Source of the DNA: Caldifarciminota bacterium
Lineage (GTDB): Bacteria > Hydrothermota > Tepidihabitantia > SM23-42
NCBI GenBank assembly: GCA_027026255.1
Contig: JALVOT010000014.1
Coordinates: forward strand, 87,986 to 151,985
Length of the DNA stretch: 64,000 nucleotides
Reading direction: 5' to 3'
Position numbers and translations under genes: made by a program. Of this stretch, positions 26,487 through 48,379 are shown one piece after another (positions within the stretch are counted from its first letter, which is position 1; every line of letters begins with the position of its first letter). Under the pieces are notes generated by a model. The model was not told the origin of the DNA. It did not search any database and saw nothing but the letters and a program-made list of their open reading frames with translations.

Positions 26487-28118
26487 ATGAGTCGGGAGAT
26501 ATGGGAAAAGAAATTAAAGAACTGTAAGGAGCGGGATTTTAAGTTTAAGACCGTCTCCGGGATCTCCGTAAAGCCGCTCTATACACCGGATGACTGTGAA
26601 TTCTTCGACTATGAGCGGGATCTTGGTTATCCTGGAGAGTTTCCCTTTACCCGGGGTGTCTACACAAATATGTACCGGGGTCGGCTCTGGACGATGCGGC
26701 AGTTTTCTGGATTTGCCACACCAAAGGATACGAACAGACGCTACAAATATTTATTAAAGCATGGTCAGACCGGGCTATCCGTAGCATTCGATTTTCCCAC
26801 CCTCTATGGAAGGGATTCTGATGACCCGTTTTCCCGGGGTGAGGTAGGTAAATGCGGGGTTGCAGTTGATACCTTAAGGGATATGGAGATTATATTTGAT
26901 GGTATCCCACTGGATCGCATATCCACCTCGATGACCATAAACCCACCGGCGGCAATTCTTCTTGCAATGTATATTGCGGTGGGTGAAAAACAGGGGGTGC
27001 CTGCACATATCCTCACCGGAACGATTCAGAATGATATGCTCAAGGAGTATCAGGCACAGAAGACCTGGATTTATCCGCCTGAACCGTCAATGCGTATTAT
27101 TACCGATATCCTTGAATACTGTTCAGAAAATGTTCCAAAATGGAACACTATTTCTATCTCAGGTTATCATATCCGTGAGGCCGGTTCAACCGCCCTGCAG
27201 GAACTTGCCTTTACCCTCGCCAACGGTTTCACCTATGTTGAATACGGCATAAAGCGGGGCCTTGAGGTTGATAAATTTGCCCCCAGACTTTCCTTCTTTT
27301 TCAATTCTCATCTCGATTTCTTTGAGGAGATTGCAAAATACCGGGCCGCACGAAGAATCTGGGCACGCATGATGCGTGATAAATATAATGCCCAGAATCC
27401 CCGTTCATTTTTGATGAGGTTCCATACCCAGACCGCCGGATGCACCCTTACCGCGCAGCAGCCCGAGAATAATATTGTGCGCACCGCATTTCAGGCCCTG
27501 GCTGCAGTGCTTGGAGGAACCCAATCCCTGCACACGAATTCAATGGATGAAACCTATGCCCTGCCGACCGAAAAGGCGGTAAAGATCGCCCTGCGCACCC
27601 AGCAGTTGATTGCTTATGAGACCGGTGTTCCCAACACCATCGATCCCTTAGGTGGTTCATACTACATTGAGACATTGACCAATGAACTGGAAAAGGGTGC
27701 CTATGAATATTTCAAAAAGATTGAAAAATTCGGTGGTGTATTACCTGCAATTGAAAAGGGGTTTTTCCAGCAGGAGATTTCCCGCAGTGCATATAAATAC
27801 CAGCGTGCCTTAGAAAAGAAAGAGAGGTTCCAGGTCGGTATAAATATTTTTGAAGAAGACAAACCGGCAGATATCGAAATCCTTAAGATACCGCCTGAGG
27901 TTGAACGCAATCAGATAAAAAAGCTGAAAGAGGTTAAAAGTGAGAGGAATAATAGAAAGGTGAAAGAGACACTGCGTCTTTTACTCAAGGCGGCACGGGA
28001 TGGAGACAATTTGATGCCCAGAATTCTCGATTGTGTGCGTGTCTATGCAACAATCGGTGAAATCTGTAATACCTTAAAGGAGGAGTTTGGTGAATATCAG
28101 GAACCAATCATATTTTAA
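26487..28118 (+). CDS. B12-dependent acyl-CoA mutase large subunit, isobutyryl-CoA-mutase type by active-site residues
   Basis: A 543-aa catalytic TIM-barrel subunit with no B12-binding domain, as in two-gene mutases. Compared with Propionibacterium methylmalonyl-CoA mutase, Tyr89 is Phe73 here (RQFSGF) and Arg207 is Gln191 (YQAQKTW). Phe/Gln at these two sites is the known mark of isobutyryl-CoA mutase (Phe80/Gln198 in IcmA). The catalytic SGYHIREAG histidine is kept. It would interconvert butyryl-CoA and isobutyryl-CoA, or a related pair such as isovaleryl/pivalyl-CoA. It lies between meaB and the small subunit. The second mutase of this window, at 46832, has the Tyr/Arg pair instead. Confidence 0.88.
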
Positions 28119-33785: not shown

Positions 33786-33963
33786 AGCCCTGGCTCATTT
33801 GTGATACGGCACGGTGCCGGAAGCGGATGACAATGAGATAGCCTTTAGATATTTTCCAAAAAAACCTTGACTTTTTGGTTTTTTGGTGTATATTTTATTA
33901 TAGGCGGTTAAATTATGATAAACTTTGCCAGGTACGAGATGGAAAATTTTGGAGAAATAAATA
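33786..33963 (+). other. Intergenic region at the left edge of the accessory island
   Basis: About 180 bp without a gene. The last half is the promoter/leader copy described at 33867-33894; the first half has only a small GC-rich palindrome (CGGCACGGTGCCG) and no clear terminator. Confidence 0.6.
33867..33894 (+). promoter_or_regulatory. Promoter copy 1 with palindrome over the -35
   Basis: TTGACT (33867-33872), 16 bp, TATATT (33889-33894). The -35 lies inside an AAAAAACC...GGTTTTTT palindrome (about 33857-33886). The same arrangement and the following leader (ATGGAAAATT, GGAGAAAT) occur again upstream of the restriction-modification genes at 36552-36678. Confidence 0.65.
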
Positions 33964-34194
33964 ATGAATAAAAATACAGCAAAGCTGATAGAGCGAATTA
34001 AAGGCCATCTGACAAAGATATACGAGGAGAAAGTTAGAGATGGTATTTTACGCGGTTCTTATGTAAAATGTGAATATACAAAAGACCCTGATGTAGATAT
34101 ACTTGTTTTTATTGACCCCTCTCATGACCCTTTTAAAGTTAGAACAAAATCAAACGACCTTCTGTTTGATATACTGGTTGCTCATTTTAGTTGA
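33964..34194 (+). CDS. Truncated nucleotidyltransferase-domain protein
   Basis: A 76-aa protein with the minimal nucleotidyltransferase pattern LRGSYVKCEYTKDPDVDILVFID: GSY at the start of the active-site helix and the metal-binding DVD. Full MNT/HepT-type or CCA-adding-like domains are longer, and this one stops at LVAHFS soon after the second strand, so it is probably truncated or a very small member. GGAG before the ATG at 33964 gives a ribosome site. No HepT-like toxin gene follows. Confidence 0.55.
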   Translation: MNKNTAKLIERIKGHLTKIYEEKVRDGILRGSYVKCEYTKDPDVDILVFIDPSHDPFKVRTKSNDLLFDILVAHFS

Positions 34195-34265: not shown

Positions 34266-34317
34266 TAAAAAACCTTAAAAATACCAGCTAAATTTAGTAG
34301 TGAAAGGAGGAAGTAAA

Positions 34318-34662
34318 ATGAAGGAAAGAAATTTAAAGGATATCATTTCAAAATTAGAAGCTATAAAAGAAAGACTGGGTATGGGTTCAATGAGCGGAAT
34401 GGGGTTGAGGGGGCCGGTAGCAGATCCAGGTCCTGGATGGGGCCCATACCTGCCTGGTCCTGTAGTTCCTTTTCCTGGATGGGGCAGACCTCTGCCTGGG
34501 CCTGTAGCTGATCCTGGTCCATCGTATTTACTGGATAAAGCAAAGCTGGCACAACTTAAAATTCGTAAAATTGATGTTGCAATTACTGAATTGGAAAAAC
34601 AAATAGAACTTCTGAAATTAGAACGCGACCTATTGAAAAAAGAATACAAAATAAGAAAATAA
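34318..34662 (+). CDS. Small Pro/Gly-rich repeat protein, possible substrate of the neighbouring radical SAM enzyme
   Basis: A 114-aa protein with a strong ribosome site (AAAGGAGG, 7 nt before the ATG). Residues 1-20 and 71-114 are charged amphipathic helices; the C-terminal one has coiled-coil heptads. The middle (32-68) is a repeat: GPVADPGPGWG (32-42), GPVVPFPGWG (47-56), GPVADPGP (61-68), with Trp41 and Trp55. The two GPVADPGP copies differ at four third codon positions but not in protein, so the peptide itself seems to be under selection. I recognise no family. Because a B12-type radical SAM gene follows, it may be a modified precursor or a partner protein; this is inference. Confidence 0.7.
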   Translation: MKERNLKDIISKLEAIKERLGMGSMSGMGLRGPVADPGPGWGPYLPGPVVPFPGWGRPLPGPVADPGPSYLLDKAKLAQLKIRKIDVAITELEKQIELLKLERDLLKKEYKIRK

Positions 34663-34689
34663 AAGACTCAACTAAAATATAGTATCAAG

Positions 34690-34740
34690 ACGGAGTCTCC
34701 GAGTCGTTAGGAGTTTAACTTATTTGCTTGGAGACTCCGT
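34690..34740. promoter_or_regulatory. Inverted repeat before the radical SAM gene
   Basis: ACGGAGTCTCC (34690-34700) and GGAGACTCCGT (34730-34740) form a perfect 11-bp stem with a 29-nt loop, between the Pro/Gly-rich gene and the radical SAM start. No T-run follows, so it is more likely a transcript-processing, partial-attenuation or repeat element than a simple terminator. Confidence 0.55.
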
Positions 34741-34769
34741 ACGGTTAAATATCCAGAGGTATAAGGAAA

Positions 34770-36359
34770 ATGAAAAGAAGATACAGTAAAAAAAATAAGT
34801 CTGATATTATATTAATTGGCTATGAAGAGTGGGAAAATCTTGGACTTCGTTCAATCGCTGCCTTTTTGAATAAACATAGTGTAAAAGTAAAGATATTATC
34901 GTGTGATAAAACATCTAAAGAGGATATTCTTGCAGTTATTCAAAAAGAGAGACCAAGAATTGTTGGTTTTTCTTTAATTTTTCAGCGAATGCTCTATGAA
35001 TTTGCTGATTTAATTGCTTATCTTCGTCAAAACGGTATTACGGCTCATTTTACTATGGGAGGTCATTTCCCAAGTATAGAATACAGGGGTACTTTAAAAA
35101 ATATCCCGGGACTTAATTCAGTAATTCGGGGTGAGGGTGAAGTAACTCTTCTGGAACTATTCAGATATCTCAACAAACCTGATCACTGGAAGCAAATTAA
35201 GGGGCTTGCATATCGGTGTGATGGAAAAATTAAGGTAACTCCACCTCGTCCATTAATAAAAGACCTTGATAATTTACCATATCCAGTTCGTAGTGAGCGA
35301 GTTGTGACACATAGGGGATTGGGAATTTGTTCAATTTTAGCCAGCCGAGGCTGTTATTATAATTGTAGTTTTTGTAGTATCCATGAATTTTACAGCAGTT
35401 CTCCAGGACCGAATCGCCGGGCGCGTTCTCCTGCTAATGTCGTGCGAGAGATGGAGCAGCTATTTTACGAACGTAATATTCGTATCTTCATTTTTGAAGA
35501 CGATGATTTTCTTATGAATTCCTCTGTATGCCGACAATGGATCAGCGATTTTGTGATGGGGTTAAAGAAGAAGAAAATATCCGATAAAATCCTGTGGCGC
35601 ATTTCCTGCCGTATAGATGATGTGGATGGCGAACTTATCAAGAAAATGATGGAAGCGGGGTTAATGAGTGTCTATATCGGGATTGAATCTGGCAATAATC
35701 AGGGATTGAAGATTTATAATAAACATTATACGGTTGACGATATCTACAATGGAATTGCTACCCTGCAGGATTTAAAAATACCCTTTGAGTTTGGTTTTAT
35801 GATATTGAATCCATACACTACTTTTGCTACTTTAAAAGAAGATATCGTTTTTCTGAAAGAAATAGGTAAAAGCGGGCAGGCTATAGTCCATTTTACAAAG
35901 ATGGTTCCCTATGCCGGGACAACAATAGCATATAGGCTTAAAAAAGAAAGAAGACTTAAAGGAACGCTTGCTTCACCTGATTATACTTACAAAGACCCCA
36001 GGTTAGAACTACTACAATTGTTTTTCACCCAGGCGTTCCATTTTAGAAATTTTGATAATAATGGTTTAGTCGAACGGTTGAGACACGCTAAGCTTGATTC
36101 TGTGGTTTTAAATAAATTTTTTTCCCATAAATATGACTCTCAACTTTATACCGAAATTATCCAGGATTTGATCCGTAAAAGTAATGAGGTGTGTTTGGAA
36201 AAGATGAGTTTAGCAGTAAATTTTATGGATATGCAGAGTGAAAATGAAATTTTGGATAATTGGCATTTTTTAGAATATCTGGTTCAGGAAGAAAAAGATA
36301 TGGAATTACTTATCACTTCAGCTCTAAACAGCGTAATGATGCACTACTCTCAGGATTAA
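34770..36359 (+). CDS. B12-binding-type radical SAM protein
   Basis: A 529-aa protein. The N-terminal 130 residues look like a cobalamin-binding Rossmann domain (IAAFLNKHSVKVKIL, RPRIVGFSLIFQ, FTMGGHFPS, VIRGEGE) without the axial-histidine DxHxxG motif, as is usual in this class. The radical SAM motif is CYYNCSFC (Cys195, Cys199, Cys202). The remaining 300 residues include EDDDFLMN and YIGIESGNNQGL segments typical of the class. Members methylate or rearrange unactivated carbons, or act on lipids, cofactors or peptides. AAGGA precedes the ATG. It is alone with the small repeat protein upstream, which is the best candidate substrate. Confidence 0.85.
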   Translation: MKRRYSKKNKSDIILIGYEEWENLGLRSIAAFLNKHSVKVKILSCDKTSKEDILAVIQKERPRIVGFSLIFQRMLYEFADLIAYLRQNGITAHFTMGGHFPSIEYRGTLKNIPGLNSVIRGEGEVTLLELFRYLNKPDHWKQIKGLAYRCDGKIKVTPPRPLIKDLDNLPYPVRSERVVTHRGLGICSILASRGCYYNCSFCSIHEFYSSSPGPNRRARSPANVVREMEQLFYERNIRIFIFEDDDFLMNSSVCRQWISDFVMGLKKKKISDKILWRISCRIDDVDGELIKKMMEAGLMSVYIGIESGNNQGLKIYNKHYTVDDIYNGIATLQDLKIPFEFGFMILNPYTTFATLKEDIVFLKEIGKSGQAIVHFTKMVPYAGTTIAYRLKKERRLKGTLASPDYTYKDPRLELLQLFFTQAFHFRNFDNNGLVERLRHAKLDSVVLNKFFSHKYDSQLYTEIIQDLIRKSNEVCLEKMSLAVNFMDMQSENEILDNWHFLEYLVQEEKDMELLITSALNSVMMHYSQD

Positions 36360-36525: not shown

Positions 36526-36565
36526 TAGTAAGACAAATAAACTTTAGCCCATTCCCAAAAAAACC

Positions 36566-36594
36566 TTGACTTTCTTGGTTTTTCACTATATAAT
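36566..36594 (+). promoter_or_regulatory. Promoter copy 2 of the restriction-modification operon
   Basis: TTGACT (36566-36571), 17 bp, TATAAT (36589-36594). As in copy 1 at 33867, the -35 sits in an AAAAAACC...GGTTTTT palindrome, and the leader that follows shares ATGGAAAATT and GGAGAAAT with copy 1. This is the likely promoter for the small ORF, mod, the ATPase gene and res. Confidence 0.7.
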
Positions 36595-36677: not shown

Positions 36678-36815
36678 ATGACCTTGAGAGTGAGATATAC
36701 CCGTAATACTTCGTATATACTGCCAGATCAGCAGGATATCTGTAATGCGGATATGAATGAGTTAGTTGCAATTCGGAAATCTGCCCATTTAAAAGAAAAA
36801 TATGGAGGAAAATAA
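36678..36815 (+). CDS. Small ORF before mod
   Basis: A 45-codon frame beginning MTLRVRYTRNTSYILPD and ending HLKEKYGGK. The ATG at 36678 is 5 nt after GGAG, and this ribosome site is conserved with the one used for the nucleotidyltransferase gene in the duplicated leader. The stop at 36813-36815 ends just before the mod start at 36817, and the GGAGG that serves mod lies within its last codons, so translation may be coupled. The product is basic and has no recognised family. Confidence 0.4.
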   Translation: MTLRVRYTRNTSYILPDQQDICNADMNELVAIRKSAHLKEKYGGK

Positions 36816-36816
36816 A

Positions 36817-38826
36817 ATGATCTTGTTGGAAGAACTGAAAGAACTCTTAAAGGAAGATTCACGATTTGTAGATAATGAAGGGAAACTTTTGAAAAACAAA
36901 ATCGTGGAACATGCTTTAAAACTTGATGAGGAATTGATTAAACTTCTATTAAAAAACGGACGAATAAAAGAGCATTTCTTTAAGGATGTAGATGGTATTT
37001 TAGTTTTTGATAAAGAAAAATTCATAAAATTCATAGACAATAAAGAATTTCTTCCTGATTCTTACACAGCTTTTAAAAATAAGATTGGACTTGCTAATGA
37101 AGATGGTAAATACTTAGCAAAGAGTAAAGAAGTAGTTTTGGTTTGGCCATATAAGGATTGTGTACTTGAAGGCGGGCAGGAAAAACTTGATGAAAAAAGA
37201 AAAGAAATTTTCCACAATCTAATTCTTGCTCTGGATGAGATTGATAGATTATTAGAACCGAAAGTAGCTACTAACTTTAAAAGAATAGATAAAGATGGAG
37301 AGCATCCGCTTGATGGTTTCAGGAGAGATCTGGAGATAAACAGGAAAAGAGGATTGCCGGAAGATACTATAACAGATAACCTGATTATAAAGGGAAATAA
37401 TCTTCTGGTATTACATTCTTTGCTGAAAGAGTTTAGAGGGAAAATCAAAATGATTTACATTGATCCACCGTATAACACAGGAAACGATGAGTTTCAATAT
37501 AATGACAACTTCAAACATTTAAGTTGGCTCACATTTATGAAAAATAGATTAGAAGTGGCTAAAGAGTTGTTAAAAGAGGATGGGGTTATTTTTGTGCAAT
37601 GTGATGATAATGAACAAGCGTATTTGAAAGTTTTGATGGATGAGATTTTTGGCAAAGAAAATAATGAGGTTACAATGTATATTCAAGTAAGGTATAGTCA
37701 AAAAACACTTTCTGAGAAAAACTATTATCAGAAGTTAATAGAGCAAATTCATGTTTATAGTAAAGGGAATTTTATACCAAATAGGGAAAGAGAGGAATAC
37801 ACTCTTGATAAATTTGTATGGGAAATTATAGAATTGTCTAAAGGGACAAAAGTAAAAATAGGAAACAGAGATGCAATTATATTTAAACCCGGAGAATATG
37901 TTATTAAAAAAAGTAATCCTGGCATAGACAAACTAAAAGAAACATGGGCCAGTGGTACAGTTTTAAAATCTAACGCTTCTGGAAAGTTTTTTAATGATTA
38001 TATTGCACCAAGGGTTAACATAGATGGATATGGAGTATTATATAAGGTATTCGGTATAGGTGAGGATGGATTAGGGTATAGATATTTTACAGGACCGAAA
38101 AGGGAGGGTGCTACTAAAGGTAAATTTTATTCAGGTGTGCCTCTAAATAGGCGAACAGAGATTGAAAGAGGTAAGTCTTATAAATTTAAAGTTATTGAGA
38201 ATTTTTATAATTTTGCAGACAGCTTTGGGAATTGTAGACATGAAGGGGGGGTTGAGTTAAGAAGCGGTAAGAAACCGGAAGTGTTATTAAAGAAGATTAT
38301 AGAGATAGCAACTAATGAAGGAGACATTGTATTAGACTTTTTCATGGGTACTGGCACCACCTGTGCTGTAGCCCACAAAATGGGAAGGCAATACATTGGT
38401 GTTGAGCAACTTGATTACGGAGAAAATAGCGCTGTTGTCAGGCTTAAGAATGTAATTAATGGTGATCAAACAGGAATCTCCAAAGAAGTTAACTGGCAAG
38501 GTGGCGGTGATTTCGTCTATATGGAACTAATGAAACTCAACGAGGCTTTCGTTGAAAAAATACAAGATGCCAAAACAACAGAGGAACTTTTAAGCATCTG
38601 GAAAGATATGAAGCATAACGGATTTTTGAGTTATAGGATTGATCCAAGATTATTTGATGAAAATATTGAAGAGTTTAAGGCTCTTAGTGTGGATGAGCAA
38701 AAGAAACTTCTCCTTGAGATGCTTGAATACAACGACCTTTATGTGAATTACAGCGAAATTGATGATGTTATATACAATGTGAGCAAAGAGGATAAGAAGT
38801 TGAATAAGAAATTTTATGGGAGATGA
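36817..38826 (+). CDS. mod: Type III restriction-modification methyltransferase (Mod)
   Basis: A 669-aa N6-adenine methyltransferase of the beta class: the catalytic DPPY motif (IDPPYNTGNDEF, residues 216-219) precedes the SAM-binding FMGTG motif (509-513), with a target-recognition region of about 290 residues between them. The N-terminal 100 residues are a helical region seen in Mod proteins. I choose the ATG at 36817 with GGAGG 8 nt upstream over an ATG at 36802 that would include the ribosome site. It is followed after 3 bp by the ATPase gene. It defines the recognition sequence of the system and protects host DNA. Confidence 0.92.
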   Translation: MILLEELKELLKEDSRFVDNEGKLLKNKIVEHALKLDEELIKLLLKNGRIKEHFFKDVDGILVFDKEKFIKFIDNKEFLPDSYTAFKNKIGLANEDGKYLAKSKEVVLVWPYKDCVLEGGQEKLDEKRKEIFHNLILALDEIDRLLEPKVATNFKRIDKDGEHPLDGFRRDLEINRKRGLPEDTITDNLIIKGNNLLVLHSLLKEFRGKIKMIYIDPPYNTGNDEFQYNDNFKHLSWLTFMKNRLEVAKELLKEDGVIFVQCDDNEQAYLKVLMDEIFGKENNEVTMYIQVRYSQKTLSEKNYYQKLIEQIHVYSKGNFIPNREREEYTLDKFVWEIIELSKGTKVKIGNRDAIIFKPGEYVIKKSNPGIDKLKETWASGTVLKSNASGKFFNDYIAPRVNIDGYGVLYKVFGIGEDGLGYRYFTGPKREGATKGKFYSGVPLNRRTEIERGKSYKFKVIENFYNFADSFGNCRHEGGVELRSGKKPEVLLKKIIEIATNEGDIVLDFFMGTGTTCAVAHKMGRQYIGVEQLDYGENSAVVRLKNVINGDQTGISKEVNWQGGGDFVYMELMKLNEAFVEKIQDAKTTEELLSIWKDMKHNGFLSYRIDPRLFDENIEEFKALSVDEQKKLLLEMLEYNDLYVNYSEIDDVIYNVSKEDKKLNKKFYGR

Positions 38827-38829
38827 ACT

Positions 38830-41124
38830 ATGATTAAAAAGATTAAACAAATTAAAAATATAGGTATTTTCAAAGATTTTAGTTGGAATTCAAGTATTTC
38901 TGAATTTAAAAATTATAATGCTTTTTATGGTTGGAATGGGACAGGGAAAACTACCATAACTAGAATATTGTCCGTCTTTGAAAAAGGTGAAATAGGCTCT
39001 CTTAAACTTGAAGATGATTCTAAGTGTATAATTGAAACAGACAGCGGTGTTTTAGAGTTATCAAAATTTTCGATCCCGGATGCTCTAAAAAACAATATAA
39101 GAGTTTTTAATGAAGATTTTATAAATGATAACCTTAATTGGAAGGAAGGAAAAGCTTCTCCAATTTTAATAATTGGCAAATTACAAAAAGAACGGAAAAA
39201 TAAATTGGATGAAATAAAAGATAGTTTAGAAAAGAAGAAAAATGAATTGAGACAGAAAGAAAATGAAAGAGAGAAAAAAGAAAAAGAAAAGAGAAAAATT
39301 TTAGAGAGAGCAAGAAATAAAATTAAGGAAAGTTTAAGAGGAGTTGTTGGTGTTAAACCCAAAAGTGCTCGTGCAAACGATTACATAAATTATACTGTTG
39401 TAGATGTTGAGAATGTTTTAAAAGGTGAAGAGGAATTGAAGCTTAATGATGATGAGATTTTTCAACTCAAAAATTCTTTAAAAGAAAGAGAAGTAAAAGA
39501 TATTATCTTTGAAATGGAAGCAGATTTTACTTGGATTGATGATGTTATAAGTAATTCACAAAAAATATTTGATACTATAATTCCAGAGGCAGGATTAAAG
39601 TTATTAAATGAAAAGGATGAAAAACTAAAAGAATGGTTAAGGATTGGTCATGAGATTCACAGAGACAAAGAAAAGCCTGTGGTATGTGAATTTTGCAAGA
39701 ATGAAATTTCTGAAGAACGATTAAAGGAATTAGCGGATTATTTTAATGATATTCTCATAAATTTAATAAATAATATTAATGAGACTATTATAAAAATTGA
39801 GCAAAACGATATACCTGCAATAAATTTACAGAAAGAACAATTTTATAGTGAGTTTCAAAGTAATTTCTTAGAATTAAGTAATAATTTTACTCAGCAAAAA
39901 AGTAGGATTAAGTCAGAACTGAATAAAATAAAGGAAGCATTAAAAGAGAAAAGGAAAAAACCTTCACAAAAATTTGTGTTTGATTTTAGTGTTCTCAAAG
40001 AGGAAGTGGAGAATATAAAGAATACAATTAAGCAATTAAATGATTTAATCAGTAAAAACAATAAAAACACTGAATTATTTGAAGATAAACTAAAGGAACT
40101 TGCTCACAAGTTAGAAGTGGGCATCATTAGTAAATATAAATCTGATTATAATGAGAAAGTAAAAGAATTAAAAACTCTGCAAAGTGATATTGATTCATTA
40201 ACAAAGGAGAAAAAAGAATTAGAAAATAGAAAAAATGAGCTGGAACAAAAACTCAAAGAACACCATATTGCTGCGGGAAGGTTTAATGGATTATTAACAT
40301 CTTTTATGGGGAGGGATGAAATAATTTTAGAAACAAAGGATGAGGGTTATATAATTAAAAGAAAAAATAGTGATGAACCTGCAAAAAATTTAAGTGAAAG
40401 TGAAAGGAATGCAATAGCACTTATTTATTTTTTAATTAAATTAGAAGAAGAAAATTTTGATGCTAACAATGGAATAGTAGTTATAGATGATCCCGTTTCC
40501 AGCTTTGATTCGCAAAATCTTTATAGGGCTTTTGGATTTATAAAGGAAAAAATCAAAGACTCAAACCCTAAACAGGTTTTTATTTTTACACACAATTTTC
40601 CGTTTTTTAGATTGATTAGAAACTGGGTGAGTTATGAAAATCATTCTTTTTATATGATCAAATCAAAAATAAGAGGAAACGAGCGTCATTCTGTTATAAA
40701 AAGGATAGATAAATTGTTAGAGAAATATAATTCAGAATATACTTTTTTATTCAAATTTATTTATCAGCGGGCAAAGAGTCAGGATGGCAGTTTAGAACAA
40801 GATTATATTTTTCCAAATGTAATAAGAAAGTTTTTAGAGAACTACATTTCTTTCAAAGTTCCCATCGGTGGCGTAAATATCCATGAAAAGTTTAAAAAGT
40901 TATGTGAGGATTATCTAGAGATTGAACAGGGGACTAAAACTTATATTGAAAGTTATTGTCAGGACCAATCTCATCCTCTTTATCAAGATAGCCCAACAGA
41001 TTTTGACACCAGATTATTAGGTGAAATACAAGAAGTATGCCGAGCTGTAATTAAGTTATTGGAAATAACCGACCCCAAACATTATCAACATCTAAAAGAA
41101 AAAGTCGGGAATAAAAATGTCTAA
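38830..41124 (+). CDS. RloC/PrrC-like AAA ATPase with zinc-hook motif
   Basis: A 764-aa protein of the AAA_13 type. Walker A is GWNGTGKTT (34-42); two long coiled coils (about 115-165 and 330-480) are separated by a CEFC pair (Cys286, Cys289) like the zinc hook of RloC. The ABC signature is NLSESE (520-525), and Walker B is VVIDDP (550-555). The C-terminal 150 residues hold Arg666-x3-Glu670 and a later His715 in a QSHPL segment. These could be an anticodon-nuclease-like Arg/Glu/His set as in PrrC, but this triad is my inference. It sits between mod and res and overlaps res by 8 bp, so it belongs to the same defence operon. Confidence 0.8.
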   Translation: MIKKIKQIKNIGIFKDFSWNSSISEFKNYNAFYGWNGTGKTTITRILSVFEKGEIGSLKLEDDSKCIIETDSGVLELSKFSIPDALKNNIRVFNEDFINDNLNWKEGKASPILIIGKLQKERKNKLDEIKDSLEKKKNELRQKENEREKKEKEKRKILERARNKIKESLRGVVGVKPKSARANDYINYTVVDVENVLKGEEELKLNDDEIFQLKNSLKEREVKDIIFEMEADFTWIDDVISNSQKIFDTIIPEAGLKLLNEKDEKLKEWLRIGHEIHRDKEKPVVCEFCKNEISEERLKELADYFNDILINLINNINETIIKIEQNDIPAINLQKEQFYSEFQSNFLELSNNFTQQKSRIKSELNKIKEALKEKRKKPSQKFVFDFSVLKEEVENIKNTIKQLNDLISKNNKNTELFEDKLKELAHKLEVGIISKYKSDYNEKVKELKTLQSDIDSLTKEKKELENRKNELEQKLKEHHIAAGRFNGLLTSFMGRDEIILETKDEGYIIKRKNSDEPAKNLSESERNAIALIYFLIKLEEENFDANNGIVVIDDPVSSFDSQNLYRAFGFIKEKIKDSNPKQVFIFTHNFPFFRLIRNWVSYENHSFYMIKSKIRGNERHSVIKRIDKLLEKYNSEYTFLFKFIYQRAKSQDGSLEQDYIFPNVIRKFLENYISFKVPIGGVNIHEKFKKLCEDYLEIEQGTKTYIESYCQDQSHPLYQDSPTDFDTRLLGEIQEVCRAVIKLLEITDPKHYQHLKEKVGNKNV

Positions 41125-43843
41125 CCTATTTACATATCAAAGATTAAGTCAGGAATATGATGTTCTCTATAAACGGGGGGTTATTAAAAAGGAGATTCCC
41201 AAATATATAGAAGACAACCTCAATCCACGTTTTAAATTAAGATCATATCAGATTGAAGCAATAGCAAGATTTATTTACTACATGGAAGAAGATCCCAACC
41301 GAAAGAAACCTACTCAATTACTGTTTAACATGGCAACAGGTTCTGGTAAAACCCTTTTGATGGCTGCGAATATACTTTACCTTTACAATAAAGGATATAG
41401 GAACTTCCTGTTTTTTGTACATTTAGATAACATAATAGAAAAAACAAGGGATAACTTCCTGAACCCTCTGTTCCCAAAATATCTATTCAATGAGAGAATA
41501 AAATTTGAGGATAAAGAAGTTGCAATAAGAGAGGTTTCTAATTTTGATGAGGCGAATGAAGAAGATATAAATATCATCTTTACAACAATTCATGGACTAC
41601 ACAGCCAGTTAAATATTTTCAGGGAAAATTCAATCACATTTGAGGATTTTAAGGATAAGAAGATTGTTTTAATATCCGATGAGGCACACCACATAAATGC
41701 ATGGACAAAAAATAAAAAACTAAAAAGAAAAGAAGAAAAAGCAAAAAATACTTGGGAATATACGATTATGCAGATTCTCAATTCCAACCCCGGAAATATA
41801 ATGCTTGAATATACTGCCACCATTGATATTGATAACCCGGCAATTTATGAGAAATATAAAGACAAGATAATTTTTGAGTATGATTTAAAGCAGTTTAGAA
41901 TTGATGGTTATTCAAAAGAGGTTAAGGTTTTGCAGGCAGATTTAGAAAACTGGGAAAGAATGTTACAAGCAGTTATTTTAAGCCAACATAGAAGAAAAAT
42001 TGCAGAAAAATATGGAATAAGGCTAAAGCCCGTAATACTTTTCAAGTCAAAAAAAATAAAACATAGTAACCGAGAAAAGAAGGGAGGTGAATGGCGGGAT
42101 AAGGTAAAAAATAAACTCTTTGATAAATACGATTATCCACAAAAAGATTGGGGGTCAATGGAAAACTTTGAACTGTTCAGAGAAAAAATAGACAATTTAA
42201 CTGAAGCTGATATAGAGAAAATCAAGTCAAGTGTAAAAGGGGCTGTATTGGATAAAGTATTTGATTATTTTGAAAAAGAAAGAATAACAATAGATAACTT
42301 CATAATTGAATTGAAAGAGGATTTTTCAGAGGAAAAATGTATTTTGCTTGATTCTGATAATATATCCAAAGATAAACAAATTAAACTCAATACTCTTGAG
42401 GATGAAAATAACGAGATTAGAGCTATATTTGCGGTAAAGATGCTTGATGAAGGATGGGATGTTCTTAACCTTTTTGATATAGTCAGACTCTATGATACGA
42501 GAGATGGAAGATGGACGAGGGATGGTAGATATATACCTGGAAATACCACGATTGCAGAAAGGCAATTGATCGGAAGGGGGGCAAGGTATTATCCATTCAA
42601 ACTCAATGAAGACGATGATTTCTTCAAAAGGAAATTTGATAACTGGCTTGATCATGATTTAAAAATCATTGAAGAACTCTATTACCACAGTAAACACAAT
42701 CCAAGATATATACAGGAACTAACAACAGCACTAAAAGAATATGGAATTATGCCCTATGAAGAAAAGGAGATTGTGTTGAAAGTAAAGCCGACAATTAAAG
42801 AAACAGAATTCTGGAAAAAAGGGTTTCTTTTTGTAAATAAGAGGGTTGAAGCGGATAGAAGTGGGATAAAAACAGTAGATGATATCGGGATAGAAAAAAC
42901 TTACAAATACAAACTACCAACAGGTTTTATAAAAGAAGATGTGATTTTAAAGGAAGGTGAAACTAATAGTAAATCTCTTGAAACAACAACCAAAATATTT
43001 CAATTGGGTGATTTTGGACATGCAATCTTAAGAAAGGCAATGGCAAAACTTGATTTCTATAGGTTTAACAACCTTAACAAATACTTTCCGTCCCTGACTT
43101 CTTCCAATGAATTTATTAGCTCTTTGAAAAATATAACCGTTGATATCACAAGTTCAAGAGAAAAATTGGATAAACTAACACCGGAAGATAAATTGAAAGT
43201 GTGTATAAATGTGTTTACGCAACTGGAAGATGAAATTTTGAATGAGTATGTTGAGTATAAAGGGACAGAAATTTTCAAACCAATAGAAATTGAGATAATA
43301 GTTAGGGACAAACAACTGAAAATTAATGTTGGAGATTATGGTGATCAAGAATATGGTGTACCAATGAGTAACCCAAAACATCCAGATTTACAATTGAATT
43401 TAGTAGATAAAGATTGGTATGTTTATGATGAAAACTATGGTACTTATGAAGAAAAATCTTTTGTTAAATTTATTGATGGAGTTATAGAAGATTTAAGAGA
43501 AGAGTACAGAGAAGTGTATCTATTAAGAAATGCAAAATTATTTAAGATTTATAGATTTTCGGATGGAAAAGCTATGGAACCGGATTTTGTGTTGTTTTTA
43601 AAGAAAGAAAATTCAGATGAGATTGAACAATACCAGCTTTTCATAGAACCAAAGGGGGAACATCTAATTAAAACAGATCAATGGAAAGGGGATTTCTTAA
43701 AAGAAATTGAGAAAAAATACCAGATTGAACCAAGATTATTCGGAGAAAACAAAAAATACAAACTAATTGGTTTTCCATTCTACAATGAAGTGAGAAAAAG
43801 CCAATTTATTAAAGTATTTAAAGAAAAGTTGGGATTAACATGA
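41117..43843 (+). CDS. res: Type III restriction-modification endonuclease/helicase (Res)
   Basis: A 908-aa protein with superfamily 2 helicase motifs: MATGSGKT (72-79), DEAH (188-191), and AVKMLDEGWDVLNLFDIVRL and ERQLIGRGARYYPF for motifs V and VI. The C-terminal nuclease has the PD-(D/E)xK pattern Asp823...Glu844-Pro-Lys846 (EPDFVLFL, FIEPKGEH). With Mod it cleaves DNA at a distance from two unmethylated sites. All motifs look intact, so the system should be active. Confidence 0.93.
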   Translation: MSNLFTYQRLSQEYDVLYKRGVIKKEIPKYIEDNLNPRFKLRSYQIEAIARFIYYMEEDPNRKKPTQLLFNMATGSGKTLLMAANILYLYNKGYRNFLFFVHLDNIIEKTRDNFLNPLFPKYLFNERIKFEDKEVAIREVSNFDEANEEDINIIFTTIHGLHSQLNIFRENSITFEDFKDKKIVLISDEAHHINAWTKNKKLKRKEEKAKNTWEYTIMQILNSNPGNIMLEYTATIDIDNPAIYEKYKDKIIFEYDLKQFRIDGYSKEVKVLQADLENWERMLQAVILSQHRRKIAEKYGIRLKPVILFKSKKIKHSNREKKGGEWRDKVKNKLFDKYDYPQKDWGSMENFELFREKIDNLTEADIEKIKSSVKGAVLDKVFDYFEKERITIDNFIIELKEDFSEEKCILLDSDNISKDKQIKLNTLEDENNEIRAIFAVKMLDEGWDVLNLFDIVRLYDTRDGRWTRDGRYIPGNTTIAERQLIGRGARYYPFKLNEDDDFFKRKFDNWLDHDLKIIEELYYHSKHNPRYIQELTTALKEYGIMPYEEKEIVLKVKPTIKETEFWKKGFLFVNKRVEADRSGIKTVDDIGIEKTYKYKLPTGFIKEDVILKEGETNSKSLETTTKIFQLGDFGHAILRKAMAKLDFYRFNNLNKYFPSLTSSNEFISSLKNITVDITSSREKLDKLTPEDKLKVCINVFTQLEDEILNEYVEYKGTEIFKPIEIEIIVRDKQLKINVGDYGDQEYGVPMSNPKHPDLQLNLVDKDWYVYDENYGTYEEKSFVKFIDGVIEDLREEYREVYLLRNAKLFKIYRFSDGKAMEPDFVLFLKKENSDEIEQYQLFIEPKGEHLIKTDQWKGDFLKEIEKKYQIEPRLFGENKKYKLIGFPFYNEVRKSQFIKVFKEKLGLT

Positions 43844-44042
43844 TGGGTGAAAACAATAAGTACGGGGCAGGTTTCCGAACTCTCCGCTTCCTTCGGTCGC
43901 TCCGACCCATACGGGGTGCGATTAACAAGCGGGTATCTGGCTTCAGCACTTCGTGCCTTCGCCCAAATCCAGCTTACAGCAGGACTCCAGATACCCGACG
44001 GACTTTATATAAAATGGCCGGTTTAATAAGCGGTGATATAGG
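43844..44042 (+). other. Intergenic region with GC-rich inverted repeat
   Basis: About 200 bp between res and the next methyltransferase gene. It is richer in G and C than the flanks. CGGGTATCTGG (43930-43940) and CCAGATACCCG (43987-43997) form a perfect 11-bp inverted repeat with a 46-nt loop that itself has the smaller hairpin GGCTTCAGCACTTCGTGCC-like (pairing GCAC/GTGC). Upstream, CTTCCTTCGGTCG and CTCCGACC also look structured. A 73-codon open frame across this stretch looks non-coding. Confidence 0.6.
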
Positions 44043-45599
44043 ATGTTTGATAAAAAAGTAAGTTTCAAAACTGAAAAAGAACTCCAGGAAGCAATCCTAA
44101 AGGAAAAGATAAAAGGAACCTCTGATTTGGAGATTGGGCAGAAATATGGAGTTACATTTAGGTATATCGAACAACTTATTACTAAGACACAAGGTCTCAA
44201 TGTTAGCGCTTTAAAAGTTACTAAAAAAATAAAGCGGCTTCATCCGAAAGATTTTAAAGAAGAAAAAACTACAGTGTGGAGTTTTAAACAAAGAGGCAAT
44301 TGGGCAACACATAGTGGTGAGTATAGAGGTAATTGGTCTCCTTATATTCCGAGAAATGTAATTCTTAAGTATTCAAAGCCAGGTGAGTTGGTGTTGGATT
44401 ATTTCTGCGGCGCGGGAACAACTGCTGTAGAATGTAAACTTTTAGGAAGGAGGTGTATTGCCTTAGACATTAATGATAAAGCTATTGAACTGGCAAAGAA
44501 GAATATTAACTTCGTCGTAGAATCTCCACAATTAACTTTGCTTGATGATAAAAGGCAGTTAAAGATTTATGAACCTGAATTATCGCTTGGCGATGCAAGA
44601 AATTTATCTTTCCTGCGAGATAATTCTATAGATTTAATCTGTGCTCATCCTCCTTATGCAAATATTATTCATTATACAGATTCTAAAGAAGGAGACCTAT
44701 CATTCTTAGATATTGATGATTTTTTAAAAGAGATGTCCAGGGTTGCAAGAGAAAGTTTTAGGGTATTAAAGCCAGGCAGACGATGTGCTATCTTGATAGG
44801 AGATACACGCAGGAAGAAGCATGTGATTCCTTTGGGCTTTAAACTTATAAATATTTTTTTGGATGTGGGCTTTAAATTAAGAGAGCTTGTTATCAAACGG
44901 CAGCATAACTGCAAAACCACAGGTTTCTGGTATGCTAATAGCATAAAATATAATTTTCTTCTCTTGGCTCATGAGTACTTGCCGATTTTTGAAAAACCTT
45001 CATCAACTGTTTCTTTGAGTATAAGAGAAAAAGAAGCAGATTACGGCTTAATTGTTCCTGCTTTAGAAAAAACTACACTAAGAAAGAAATTAGATGAACT
45101 CGAGACCACAACGGTATGGATTTTACCTCAAAAGAACTTTGAAAAGAATTTAAATAAAAATGTAATCGATAGATATTCAAAAGGTAAGGGATATTATACT
45201 ATATCGTTTGTTTCTTATTCCAAGAATGATATAGATTATTCAGAAATAAATGCGAAAAGTGCTAAACAATTACTTTTTATTAAATCTCCATTTTTAAATA
45301 ATTCTTCTTCTCGTACAAGTATTGAAAATTATTTAAAAGGAATAAAAAGAATATTGGTTCAAGAACTGTCTAACTTAAACAAAGGCGGATTTGTGGTAAT
45401 TCAGACAAAAGATGCCAGGATTGACGGATACATAGAGCCTCTTGCTAAAAGAATAGTAGATATGTTGGTGCATGATAAGTTATGGCTTAAGGAAATTGTG
45501 GTTGTTACTCATGATGGAGCTAATTCAATTAACCAGAATTCAAAAGGCTATTTAAAAATAATCCATCAATATCTACTTGTATTCGAGGTGAAAAAATGA
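44043..45599 (+). CDS. DNA methyltransferase with HPPY motif
   Basis: A 518-aa amino-methyltransferase. Residues 15-60 look like a helix-turn-helix. The SAM motif DYFCGAGTT (119-127) precedes the catalytic-type motif AHPPY (201-205), the reverse of the Mod order. The usual first residue (D, N or S) of this motif is His202. The module from GRRCAILIGDTR to LLAHEYLPIFEK (245-317) seems repeated near the C-terminus, from GGFVVIQTKDAR to HQYLLVFE. No cognate nuclease gene is intact nearby, so it may be an orphan, or its partner may have decayed. Its stop overlaps the next small ORF (ATGA). Confidence 0.85.
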   Translation: MFDKKVSFKTEKELQEAILKEKIKGTSDLEIGQKYGVTFRYIEQLITKTQGLNVSALKVTKKIKRLHPKDFKEEKTTVWSFKQRGNWATHSGEYRGNWSPYIPRNVILKYSKPGELVLDYFCGAGTTAVECKLLGRRCIALDINDKAIELAKKNINFVVESPQLTLLDDKRQLKIYEPELSLGDARNLSFLRDNSIDLICAHPPYANIIHYTDSKEGDLSFLDIDDFLKEMSRVARESFRVLKPGRRCAILIGDTRRKKHVIPLGFKLINIFLDVGFKLRELVIKRQHNCKTTGFWYANSIKYNFLLLAHEYLPIFEKPSSTVSLSIREKEADYGLIVPALEKTTLRKKLDELETTTVWILPQKNFEKNLNKNVIDRYSKGKGYYTISFVSYSKNDIDYSEINAKSAKQLLFIKSPFLNNSSSRTSIENYLKGIKRILVQELSNLNKGGFVVIQTKDARIDGYIEPLAKRIVDMLVHDKLWLKEIVVVTHDGANSINQNSKGYLKIIHQYLLVFEVKK

Positions 45600-46831: not shown

Positions 46832-48379
46832 ATGATTTTTACTCCGGATGATTTGAAAAATTTTGATTATGAAAGGGACCTAGGTAAACCGGGTGAATTT
46901 CCATTTACCCGGGGAATATATCCTACAATGTATGCCGGCCGGCTCTGGACAATGCGTCAGTATGCAGGTTTTGGCACGGCTGAAGAATCAAATAAACGCT
47001 ATAGATATCTCTTAGAGCAGGGTCAGACCGGTCTTTCTGTTGCCTTTGATTTACCGACCCAGATGGGCTATGATTCAGATGACCCGATCGCTGAAGGTGA
47101 AGTGGGAAAGTGTGGGGTGGCAATTGATACCTTGAAGGATATGGAAATTCTCTTTAATAAGATACCCCTTGATAAAGTAAGCACCTCAATGACGATTAAT
47201 GCCACCGCAGCAGTTTTACTTGCGATGTATATAGTCCTGGCTGAAAAACAGGGGATTGGACCGGAGAAACTGCGCGGAACCGTGCAGAATGATATCTTAA
47301 AAGAATATATTGCCCGGGGAACCTATATATATCCTCCAGAACCGTCAATGAGATTGACCGTTGATATTATTGAATTCTGCAGTGAAAACCTGCCTAAGTG
47401 GAATACCATTTCCGTTTCCGGATATCATATCCGGGAGGCTGGAGCAACTGCAGTTCAGGAACTCGCTTTTACCCTTGCTGACGGTATCGCCTATGTCCAG
47501 GCTGTGATTGATAGGGGACTGGATATTGATACATTTGCACCAAGACTTTCATTCTTTTTTAACGCCCATAATAACCTTTTCGAGGAGATAGCAAAATTCC
47601 GCGCCGCAAGAAGGTTATGGGCAAAGATTATGCGTAATCAATTTAAGGCGAAGAATCCTTTGTCCTGGAGATTGAGATTTCATACCCAGACAGCAGGTTC
47701 AACCCTTACTGCCCAGGAACCCCGGAATAATGCAATCCGGGTTGCATATCAGGCATTAGCTGCGGTTCTGGGCGGCACCCAGTCTCTGCATACCAATTCA
47801 TTTGATGAGGCGCTTTCTTTACCGACCACCGAATCAGTAAGACTTGCCCTGCGCACCCAGCAGATAATCGCCCATGAGACCGGTGTTCCTGAGGTGGTGG
47901 ATCCGATGGGTGGTTCATACTATTTAGAATCCCTTACCCGGTCACTTGAGGATAAGGCAGTTGAGTATCTGAAAAAGATTGAAGCACTTGGTGGGGCGAT
48001 AAAGGCGATTGAAAAGGGTTATTTCCAGCGTGAGATTCATCTCAGTGCCTATAAATATCAGAAGGCGGTTGAAGAGAATAAGATTGGTGTTGTCGGCGTA
48101 AATAAATTTTCTGATAGTCAAAAGTCAGAACAATACAAAATCTTAAAGGTTAAAGATAAGGCGGTTGCAAGACAAAAAAGTCGTCTGAAAAAAATAAAGG
48201 CGATGCGCGATAAAAAGAAGGTCGAACAAAGCCTTGAGAGATTAAAAAATCTTGCAGTAAGTGGTCAAAATCTGATGGAACCGATTATTGAATGCGTCAG
48301 GGCATATGCAACCCTGGGTGAAATTTCAAAGGCACTCAAAGAAATTTTTGGAGAATATGAAGAAAAACCATTGTTTTAG
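46832..48379 (+). CDS. Methylmalonyl-CoA mutase large subunit
   Basis: A 515-aa catalytic subunit without B12 domain. It has RQYAGF with Tyr44 and YIARGTY with Arg162, matching Tyr89 and Arg207 of Propionibacterium methylmalonyl-CoA mutase, which bind the substrate carboxylate; so methylmalonyl-CoA/succinyl-CoA is the likely pair. SGYHIREAG keeps the catalytic His. It is shorter at the N-terminus than its paralogue at 26487 (543 aa). There is no small subunit beside it; the one at 28145 probably serves both. No clear ribosome site precedes the ATG. Confidence 0.92.

Follow-up and report, generated by a model that had tools for sequence, protein, structure and literature searches.

The window, which is the whole 64,000-nucleotide stretch of DNA analyzed here, contains a gene for a small repeat protein directly upstream of a gene for a B12-binding radical SAM enzyme. 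Since the pair recurs across unrelated bacteria and in one archaeon, we consider it very probable that the enzyme chemically alters the repeats of its partner. Judging from the sequences, we think it quite likely that the partner is the enzyme's substrate; by analogy with related enzymes, the chemistry is reasonably probable to be methylation, and we lean somewhat toward a product that stays a protein. These gradings are judgments rather than computed values and are not independent of one another. Neither the partner nor the enzyme falls in a named family. Among the many B12 radical SAM proteins that lack annotation, most have no assigned substrate; for this enzyme, sequence evidence names a substrate candidate, a probable target motif (DPxP), and a probable recognition part.

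The partner has near-invariant repeats between two predicted helices

The partner gene starts with an ATG at 34318, and its stop codon ends at 34662. The original prediction, a 114-aa reading frame with a strong ribosome site, was borne out by the sequence AAAGGAGGAAGTAAA before this ATG. The pair comprises the following features.

34303..34317, plus strand: ribosome-binding region 5' of the partner gene, identified by sequence
34318..34662, plus strand: type A partner gene, 114 aa, probable substrate; open reading frame with a strong ribosome site and homologues in four other genomes
34321..34374, plus strand: N-terminal helix of the partner, residues 2 to 19; AlphaFold2 model, conserved across type A
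34411..34440, plus strand: repeat 1, GPVADPGPGW; GPVADPxP is invariant at this position in 5/5 type A proteins
34456..34482, plus strand: repeat 2, degenerate, GPVVPFPGW; a middle copy, whose sequence and number vary between genomes
34498..34521, plus strand: repeat 3, GPVADPGP, then SY; the other four genomes have ADPAPW here in the type A alignment
34519..34656, plus strand: C-terminal helix of the partner, residues 68 to 113, also predicted to form a coiled coil, the proposed recognition part; AlphaFold2 pLDDT of about 90, with the motif and helix start common with type B in profile comparison
34690..34740, plus strand: stem-loop between the two genes, with 11-bp perfect arms at 34690-34700 and 34730-34740; folding compared with shuffles
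34770..36359, plus strand: B12-binding radical SAM enzyme gene, 529 aa; Pfam B12-binding and Radical_SAM, homologues 65 to 76% identical in four genomes
34824..35159, plus strand: B12-binding domain, enzyme residues 19 to 130; PF02310, 5.4e-20
35352..35375, plus strand: CYYNCSFC, the canonical CxxxCxxC iron-sulfur motif, enzyme residues 195 to 202; three cysteines invariant in alignment A6

The middle region of the partner reads LRGPVADPGPGW / LPGPVVPFPGWG / LPGPVADPGPSY and places the repeats in the contexts RGPVADPGPGW, PGPVVPFPGWG, and PGPVADPGPSY. AlphaFold2 (five sequences, mean pLDDT of 67) predicted helices at residues 2 to 19 and 68 to 113, the latter at a pLDDT of about 90, and values below 50 for residues 22 to 60. 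The two helical ends proposed earlier hold in this model, in which the protein is predicted to consist of a short N-terminal helix, a disordered repeat-bearing middle, and a long C-terminal helix. No significant match to the partner was found in Pfam, NCBIfam, PHROGs, or PDB sequences; weak matches to TIGR04374 (0.027) and to an IS3 transposase (0.19) were judged to be coiled-coil noise.

Between the first and last repeats of the window partner, 4 of the 7 conserved codons differ and every difference is silent, as had been claimed for the GPVADPGP codons. Over the five homologous loci, the same comparison gave 23 silent differences and 1 replacement (P = 1.6e-11 for a silent expectation of 30% per single-base change), a P value that is biased and flattering because the copies were picked by peptide match. 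Stronger support than the codon test comes from the alignment, in which the motif is invariant in position across the five genomes, which belong to different phyla.

The enzyme belongs to no curated subfamily by sequence scores

As first proposed, the gene after the partner is predicted to encode a B12-binding radical SAM protein, with the B12-binding domain followed by a radical SAM domain (PF04055, residues 191 to 359, 5.2e-19). Domain order and the three-cysteine motif place it among the cobalamin-dependent radical SAM enzymes. Its AlphaFold model is moderately confident (pLDDT of 70.6), with values below 50 for residues 162 to 218, including the cluster-binding loop. Every NCBIfam equivalog scored at most 134 bits, far below its cut-off, and by this measure the enzyme belongs to no curated subfamily. 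The best NCBIfam match by E value was ApyD (NF050148; 8e-39), followed by BchE; the best PDB match was OxsB, and the nearest solved structures include OxsB, the methylases TsrM, CysS, and TokK, and the protein methylase MgmA.

ApyD is a B12-binding radical SAM protein of the aminopyruvatide RiPP pathway, with a ribosomal peptide encoded beside it, and it beta-methylates a tyrosine near the C terminus of that peptide (PMC10635010). The window enzyme scored 133.5 bits against the ApyD family cut-off of 750, and the P450, MNIO enzyme, and methyltransferase of ApyD's own setting were not found to be common to the loci studied here. The RiPP maturation C-methyltransferases of TIGR03975 (rSAM_ocin_1) also combine B12 and radical SAM domains with a peptide substrate, but the enzyme scored 64.7 bits, below their cut-off of 281.85. 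MgmA (TIGR04014, methyl-coenzyme M reductase glutamine C-methyltransferase) is a cobalamin radical SAM enzyme and structural neighbor that methylates a retained protein, whereas its substrate is a large folded enzyme rather than a repeat peptide, and the score was 50 bits against 360. The tetrapyrrole and hopanoid enzymes BchE, HpnR, and HpnJ have the same two-domain scaffold, yet scored 129, 98, and 93 bits against cut-offs of 481, 650, and 578, and their pathway genes are not conserved beside the pair. According to a review, a grouped set of RiPP Cbeta-methyltransferases that includes PoyC has Cx7Cx2C, in contrast to the CxxxCxxC of the window enzyme.

The pair recurs in unrelated genomes

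The enzyme alone was used to scan 84,980 species genomes by exact peptide words from one sequence, a method that would miss more distant relatives, and five loci in four genomes were found (65 to 76% identity). These genomes are titled Nitrospirae JdFR-85, Methanomassiliicoccales archaeon, Phycisphaerae bacterium, and Candidatus Aerophobetes bacterium; the Aerophobetes enzyme gene is split over two contigs. The partner lies directly upstream of the enzyme in all four, and the plan is the same. Together with the window, these genomes define type A, for which the evidence comes from five genomes. The other four are metagenome assemblies according to their titles, and the archaeal host assignment likewise comes from the genome title. 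The homologous partners are 110 to 137 aa long, lie 64 to 117 nt upstream of the enzyme, and are 57 to 68% identical to the window partner; for the archaeal partner, which has a longer reading frame, the alignment guided the choice of start codon. In the type A alignment, LRGPVADPxP and the last GP[VI]ADPxP are invariant or nearly so, and the stretch between the first and last motifs varies in length and copy number (two to four motifs). A conserved pair of a small precursor-like gene beside a modifying enzyme, the arrangement used to recognize RiPP-type systems, was found in 5/5 type A genomes.

The partner is present as one copy per type A genome, beside the enzyme. A partner profile found nothing else in 17 genomes of the Aerophobetes phylum, 396 of the Nitrospirota, 397 of the Phycisphaerae class, and 300 of the archaeal class, and no partner was found in phages or plasmids. 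No third gene was common to the type A loci (the flanks covered reach about 10 kb in both directions at the Nitrospirae and archaeal loci and were contig limited at the others). The window pair looks horizontally acquired, since the 147 genomes of the window's own phylum contain no close partner or enzyme; weak partner matches there (E values of 6e-4 to 0.1), in low-complexity proline/glycine sequence, were judged to be due to chance. Because the type A distribution is sparse and crosses domains, joint horizontal transfer of both genes would be its natural reading.

Viral contigs contained no relatives beyond two enzymes at 23 to 25% identity, one of which was read closely and has no partner. 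An enzyme on a Sinorhizobium sojae plasmid (31 to 34%) adjoins another radical SAM gene, and no DPxP partner was seen upstream of it.

Sister enzymes in Nitrospirota have distinct upstream partners

A search of 396 Nitrospirota genomes with an enzyme profile returned 12 further enzymes in 11 genomes (about 380 to 440 bits, 34 to 40% identity), none of them selected for having a partner. An upstream partner was present for 12/12, in three types.

Type B, 5 loci: 77 to 78 aa, MEKPIMNPELPLPEVFKWRVPINWDPVPWWFFERANLPKEALSQLALIQLENQR..., with one DPVPW motif (WDPVPWW) and a helix or coil directly after it
Type C, 1 locus: 171 aa if counted from the likely start and 184 if counted from the first ATG; two coils enclose four VxDPxP repeats
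Type D, 6 loci: 331 aa, with a C-terminal part FIDKGDPSPEDIIRLK (DPSP motif) and predicted helices

The type C motifs are VVDPAPW, PVVDPGPF, PIVDPGPF, and VVADPAPYPW. No more than about 20 nt separate the end of the type D partner gene from the enzyme start; in L099, the locus that was read closely, stop and start codons overlap as ATGA. Profile comparison over the motif and helix linked types A and B (E value of 1.1e-4, probability of 57%). The residues common to all partner types are D-P-x-P, usually though not always followed by Trp, Phe, or Tyr. No single aromatic residue is universal in the motif, Trp being absent from repeat 3 of the window partner and from repeat 1 of L006, and the number of motifs per partner ranges from 1 to 4. 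The three partner architectures allow side-by-side testing, and the 77-aa partner from Nitrospirota, with its single motif, would serve conveniently as a minimal substrate.

Maximum-likelihood analysis placed the 17 enzymes in a single clade with support of 98/98, within which the enzymes of type A (86/98), type B (100/100), and type D (100/100) each form one group. Partner types track this tree, on which their labels require only 4 changes, the minimum number. An upstream DPxP partner was found for 17/17 clade enzymes versus 0/20 matches outside the clade (26 to 32% identity), a set with some short flanks and with the copies in genome G135 entering two times, once as loci of their own and once as part of L060. 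The original prediction had suggested searching for the pair in related genomes and asking whether the repeat covaries with the enzyme; the pair is present in four further type A genomes and at 12 sister loci, and the partner types follow the enzyme phylogeny. Two outcomes had been named in advance as contrary, and neither was seen: among the 17 clade enzymes none lacks an upstream partner, and against the NCBIfam models the enzyme does not strongly resemble any family that modifies lipids or cofactors. These results largely support the earlier proposal that the enzyme modifies the repeats.

Among random windows of the same size, 3.4% contain an open reading frame with DPxPW and 12.8% one with DPxP. 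Types A, B, and C stand well above this background. The type D partner is a candidate only, because its single DPSP could arise by chance (12.8% background), and for this a single such event in its ancestor would be enough.

A second, very divergent B12 radical SAM gene lies directly downstream of the type C pair (L097, 8746-10866), and an LGFP-repeat protein is encoded near 3/5 type B pairs (L094, 4068-5417; L095; L096).

Intergenic stem-loops and candidate regulatory elements

The 11-bp inverted repeat reported between the two genes is real: the window stem-loop has a predicted energy of -32.5 kcal/mol and folds better than shuffles (z = -3.9). Intergenic stem-loops are also present in L006 (z = -5.8) and L008 (z = -2.35), and none beyond shuffles was found in L007 or L010. 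Long stems are predicted between the genes in 5/5 type B loci (z = -0.4 to -2.9). The intergenic stem-loop fits with more partner than enzyme being made.

At the Aerophobetes locus, a c-di-GMP-I riboswitch (RF03167; L010, 2020-2096; 63.8 bits, cut-off of 59) was found 420 nt upstream of the partner, and the interval contains no convincing plus-strand gene; it is one of two c-di-GMP-I riboswitches in that genome. The remaining type A loci yielded no riboswitch, the Rfam search there returning nothing beyond chance, and alignment of the upstream regions revealed no convincing common element. Elsewhere, the genome titled Methanomassiliicoccales archaeon has a c-di-GMP-I riboswitch above the cut-off (L061; G148:C1:936508-936591), which is unexpected for an archaeon and may bear on the host assignment.

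A stretch (A)AGGAGGTGA(T), complementary to the anti-Shine-Dalgarno end of 16S rRNA, occurs 66 to 127 nt upstream of the partner start at three loci (window, about 34200; L006, about 2533; L010, about 2389) and possibly belongs to a leader open reading frame. A near-identical promoter-like element, CTTGACTTT..TTGGTTTTT then TATATT/TATAAT, flanks the pair in the window (33856-33884 and 36555-36583), and weaker copies are found elsewhere in the genome.

A model for the pair and its alternatives

In our model, the upstream gene would make an excess of a small protein whose disordered, proline-rich middle carries GPVADPxP(W) motifs between helices. The product of the downstream gene, a cobalamin-dependent radical SAM enzyme, would dock on this partner, probably through the C-terminal helix directly after the last motif. 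Residues inside the DPxP segments would then be modified repeat by repeat, most likely by methyl transfer to an unactivated carbon (of Pro, Val, Asp, or Trp), and the modified partner would most likely not be exported as a peptide but remain inside the cell as a small coiled-coil protein whose repeats have been stiffened. The sequences show the two genes, their linkage and co-inheritance, the conservation of the motif, and the fit of partner types to the enzyme tree; from these we infer the substrate role, the docking on the C-terminal helix, the methylation, and the retention in the cell. A substrate would be expected to show just this combination, motifs that differ in number, lie in disordered sequence, and keep nearly the same letters in a protein strictly linked to its enzyme. 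Recognition is placed in the helix because types A and B have in common the DPxPW motif and the helix directly following it. C-methylation is the leading guess because ApyD is the top NCBIfam match and OxsB, TsrM, CysS, TokK, and MgmA are the solved neighbors. The model as a whole, a two-gene cassette with C-terminal helix docking, DPxP methylation, and a retained product, has in our estimate slightly better than even odds, with the caveat that the sister partners differ in size (77, 171, and 331 aa).

That an ordinary lipid- or cofactor-modifying enzyme merely sits beside an unrelated coiled-coil protein is extremely unlikely. Both domains are common, and the enzyme does score 93 to 129 bits against HpnJ, HpnR, and BchE, but these scores are far below the respective cut-offs, the same pair recurs at 57 to 76% identity in five phyla with no other gene in common, and linkage in the clade is 17/17. 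For type A, coincidence is refuted by linkage. It is also quite improbable that the partner serves as a scaffold, activator, or delivery protein while the enzyme modifies something else. Small helical proteins can act as recognition partners, and type D partners are large, with translation coupled to that of the enzyme by the ATGA start/stop overlap read in L099; recognition partners are normally folded, however, whereas the disordered, repeated, near-invariant motifs seen here are substrate-like, and no RiPP recognition family matched. With the partner taken as substrate, methylation is a majority guess: BchE (a cyclase), HpnJ, and OxsB (ring contraction) are about as similar to the enzyme as methylases are. 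The same broad B12 radical SAM group includes ring contraction and cyclization, and the enzyme might instead cross-link, cyclize, epimerize, or oxidize residues of the motif, for example by joining Trp to a Pro or Val carbon. We consider such chemistry unlikely, as enzymes that combine a B12-binding with a radical SAM domain most commonly methylate. The motif often ends in Trp, but a Trp cross-link cannot be general because some motif copies lack this residue.

The remaining alternative concerns the product. The pair resembles a minimal RiPP system with a predicted modification, and the repeats could be released from the precursor after modification and leave the cell to act as a signal or antimicrobial, the helices being leader and follower. 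A precursor beside a maturase, an intergenic stem-loop, and repeated cores would suit such a product. GPVADP may resemble the bottromycin core. Bottromycin, which carries beta-methylated residues, is made from the N terminus of its precursor, and the C-terminal recognition part proposed here recalls that arrangement (PMC5103208). Both would involve radical SAM methylation of a ribosomal precursor (BtmD in bottromycin), with a C-terminal part absent from the bottromycin product; in contrast, bottromycin has one core, no repeats, and many more tailoring genes. Some RiPP clusters carry no protease or exporter. We nevertheless regard a released natural product as improbable: the loci have in common no neighboring gene for a protease, transporter, or immunity protein, the motif is nearly invariant, unlike most antimicrobial cores, and the linkers between motifs vary without a common cleavage site. 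The evidence leans toward a retained protein because no conserved protease or transporter was found.

More broadly, and only tentatively, these loci might represent an undescribed class of radical-SAM-modified coiled-coil proteins, found in Bacteria and at least one archaeon, whose 1 to 4 DPxP motifs are each modified by a dedicated enzyme to give a retained structural or signaling product, under c-di-GMP control in some hosts. Our literature search found no paper with GPVADPAP and none joining c-di-GMP, riboswitch, radical SAM, and RiPP. If the model is true, a mobile cassette of partner and enzyme alone, passing between archaea and bacteria, would modify a peptide or protein with unusually simple means, and it could supply chemistry at Pro or Trp carbons.

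Genomic neighborhood of the pair

Just upstream of the partner gene, the window contains an apparently truncated 76-aa nucleotidyltransferase (33964-34194) that matches PDC-S09/MntA-like models. A defense island adjoins the pair (36802-45599); it contains a type III restriction-modification methylase (36802) and restriction enzyme (41117), an AAA/PDC-S06 candidate defense gene between them (38830), and then a type II methyltransferase (44043). On either side of the island lie two genes of similar sequence (26487-28118 and 46832-48379) that are predicted to encode methylmalonyl-CoA mutase-like large subunits, and their similarity suggests a duplication.
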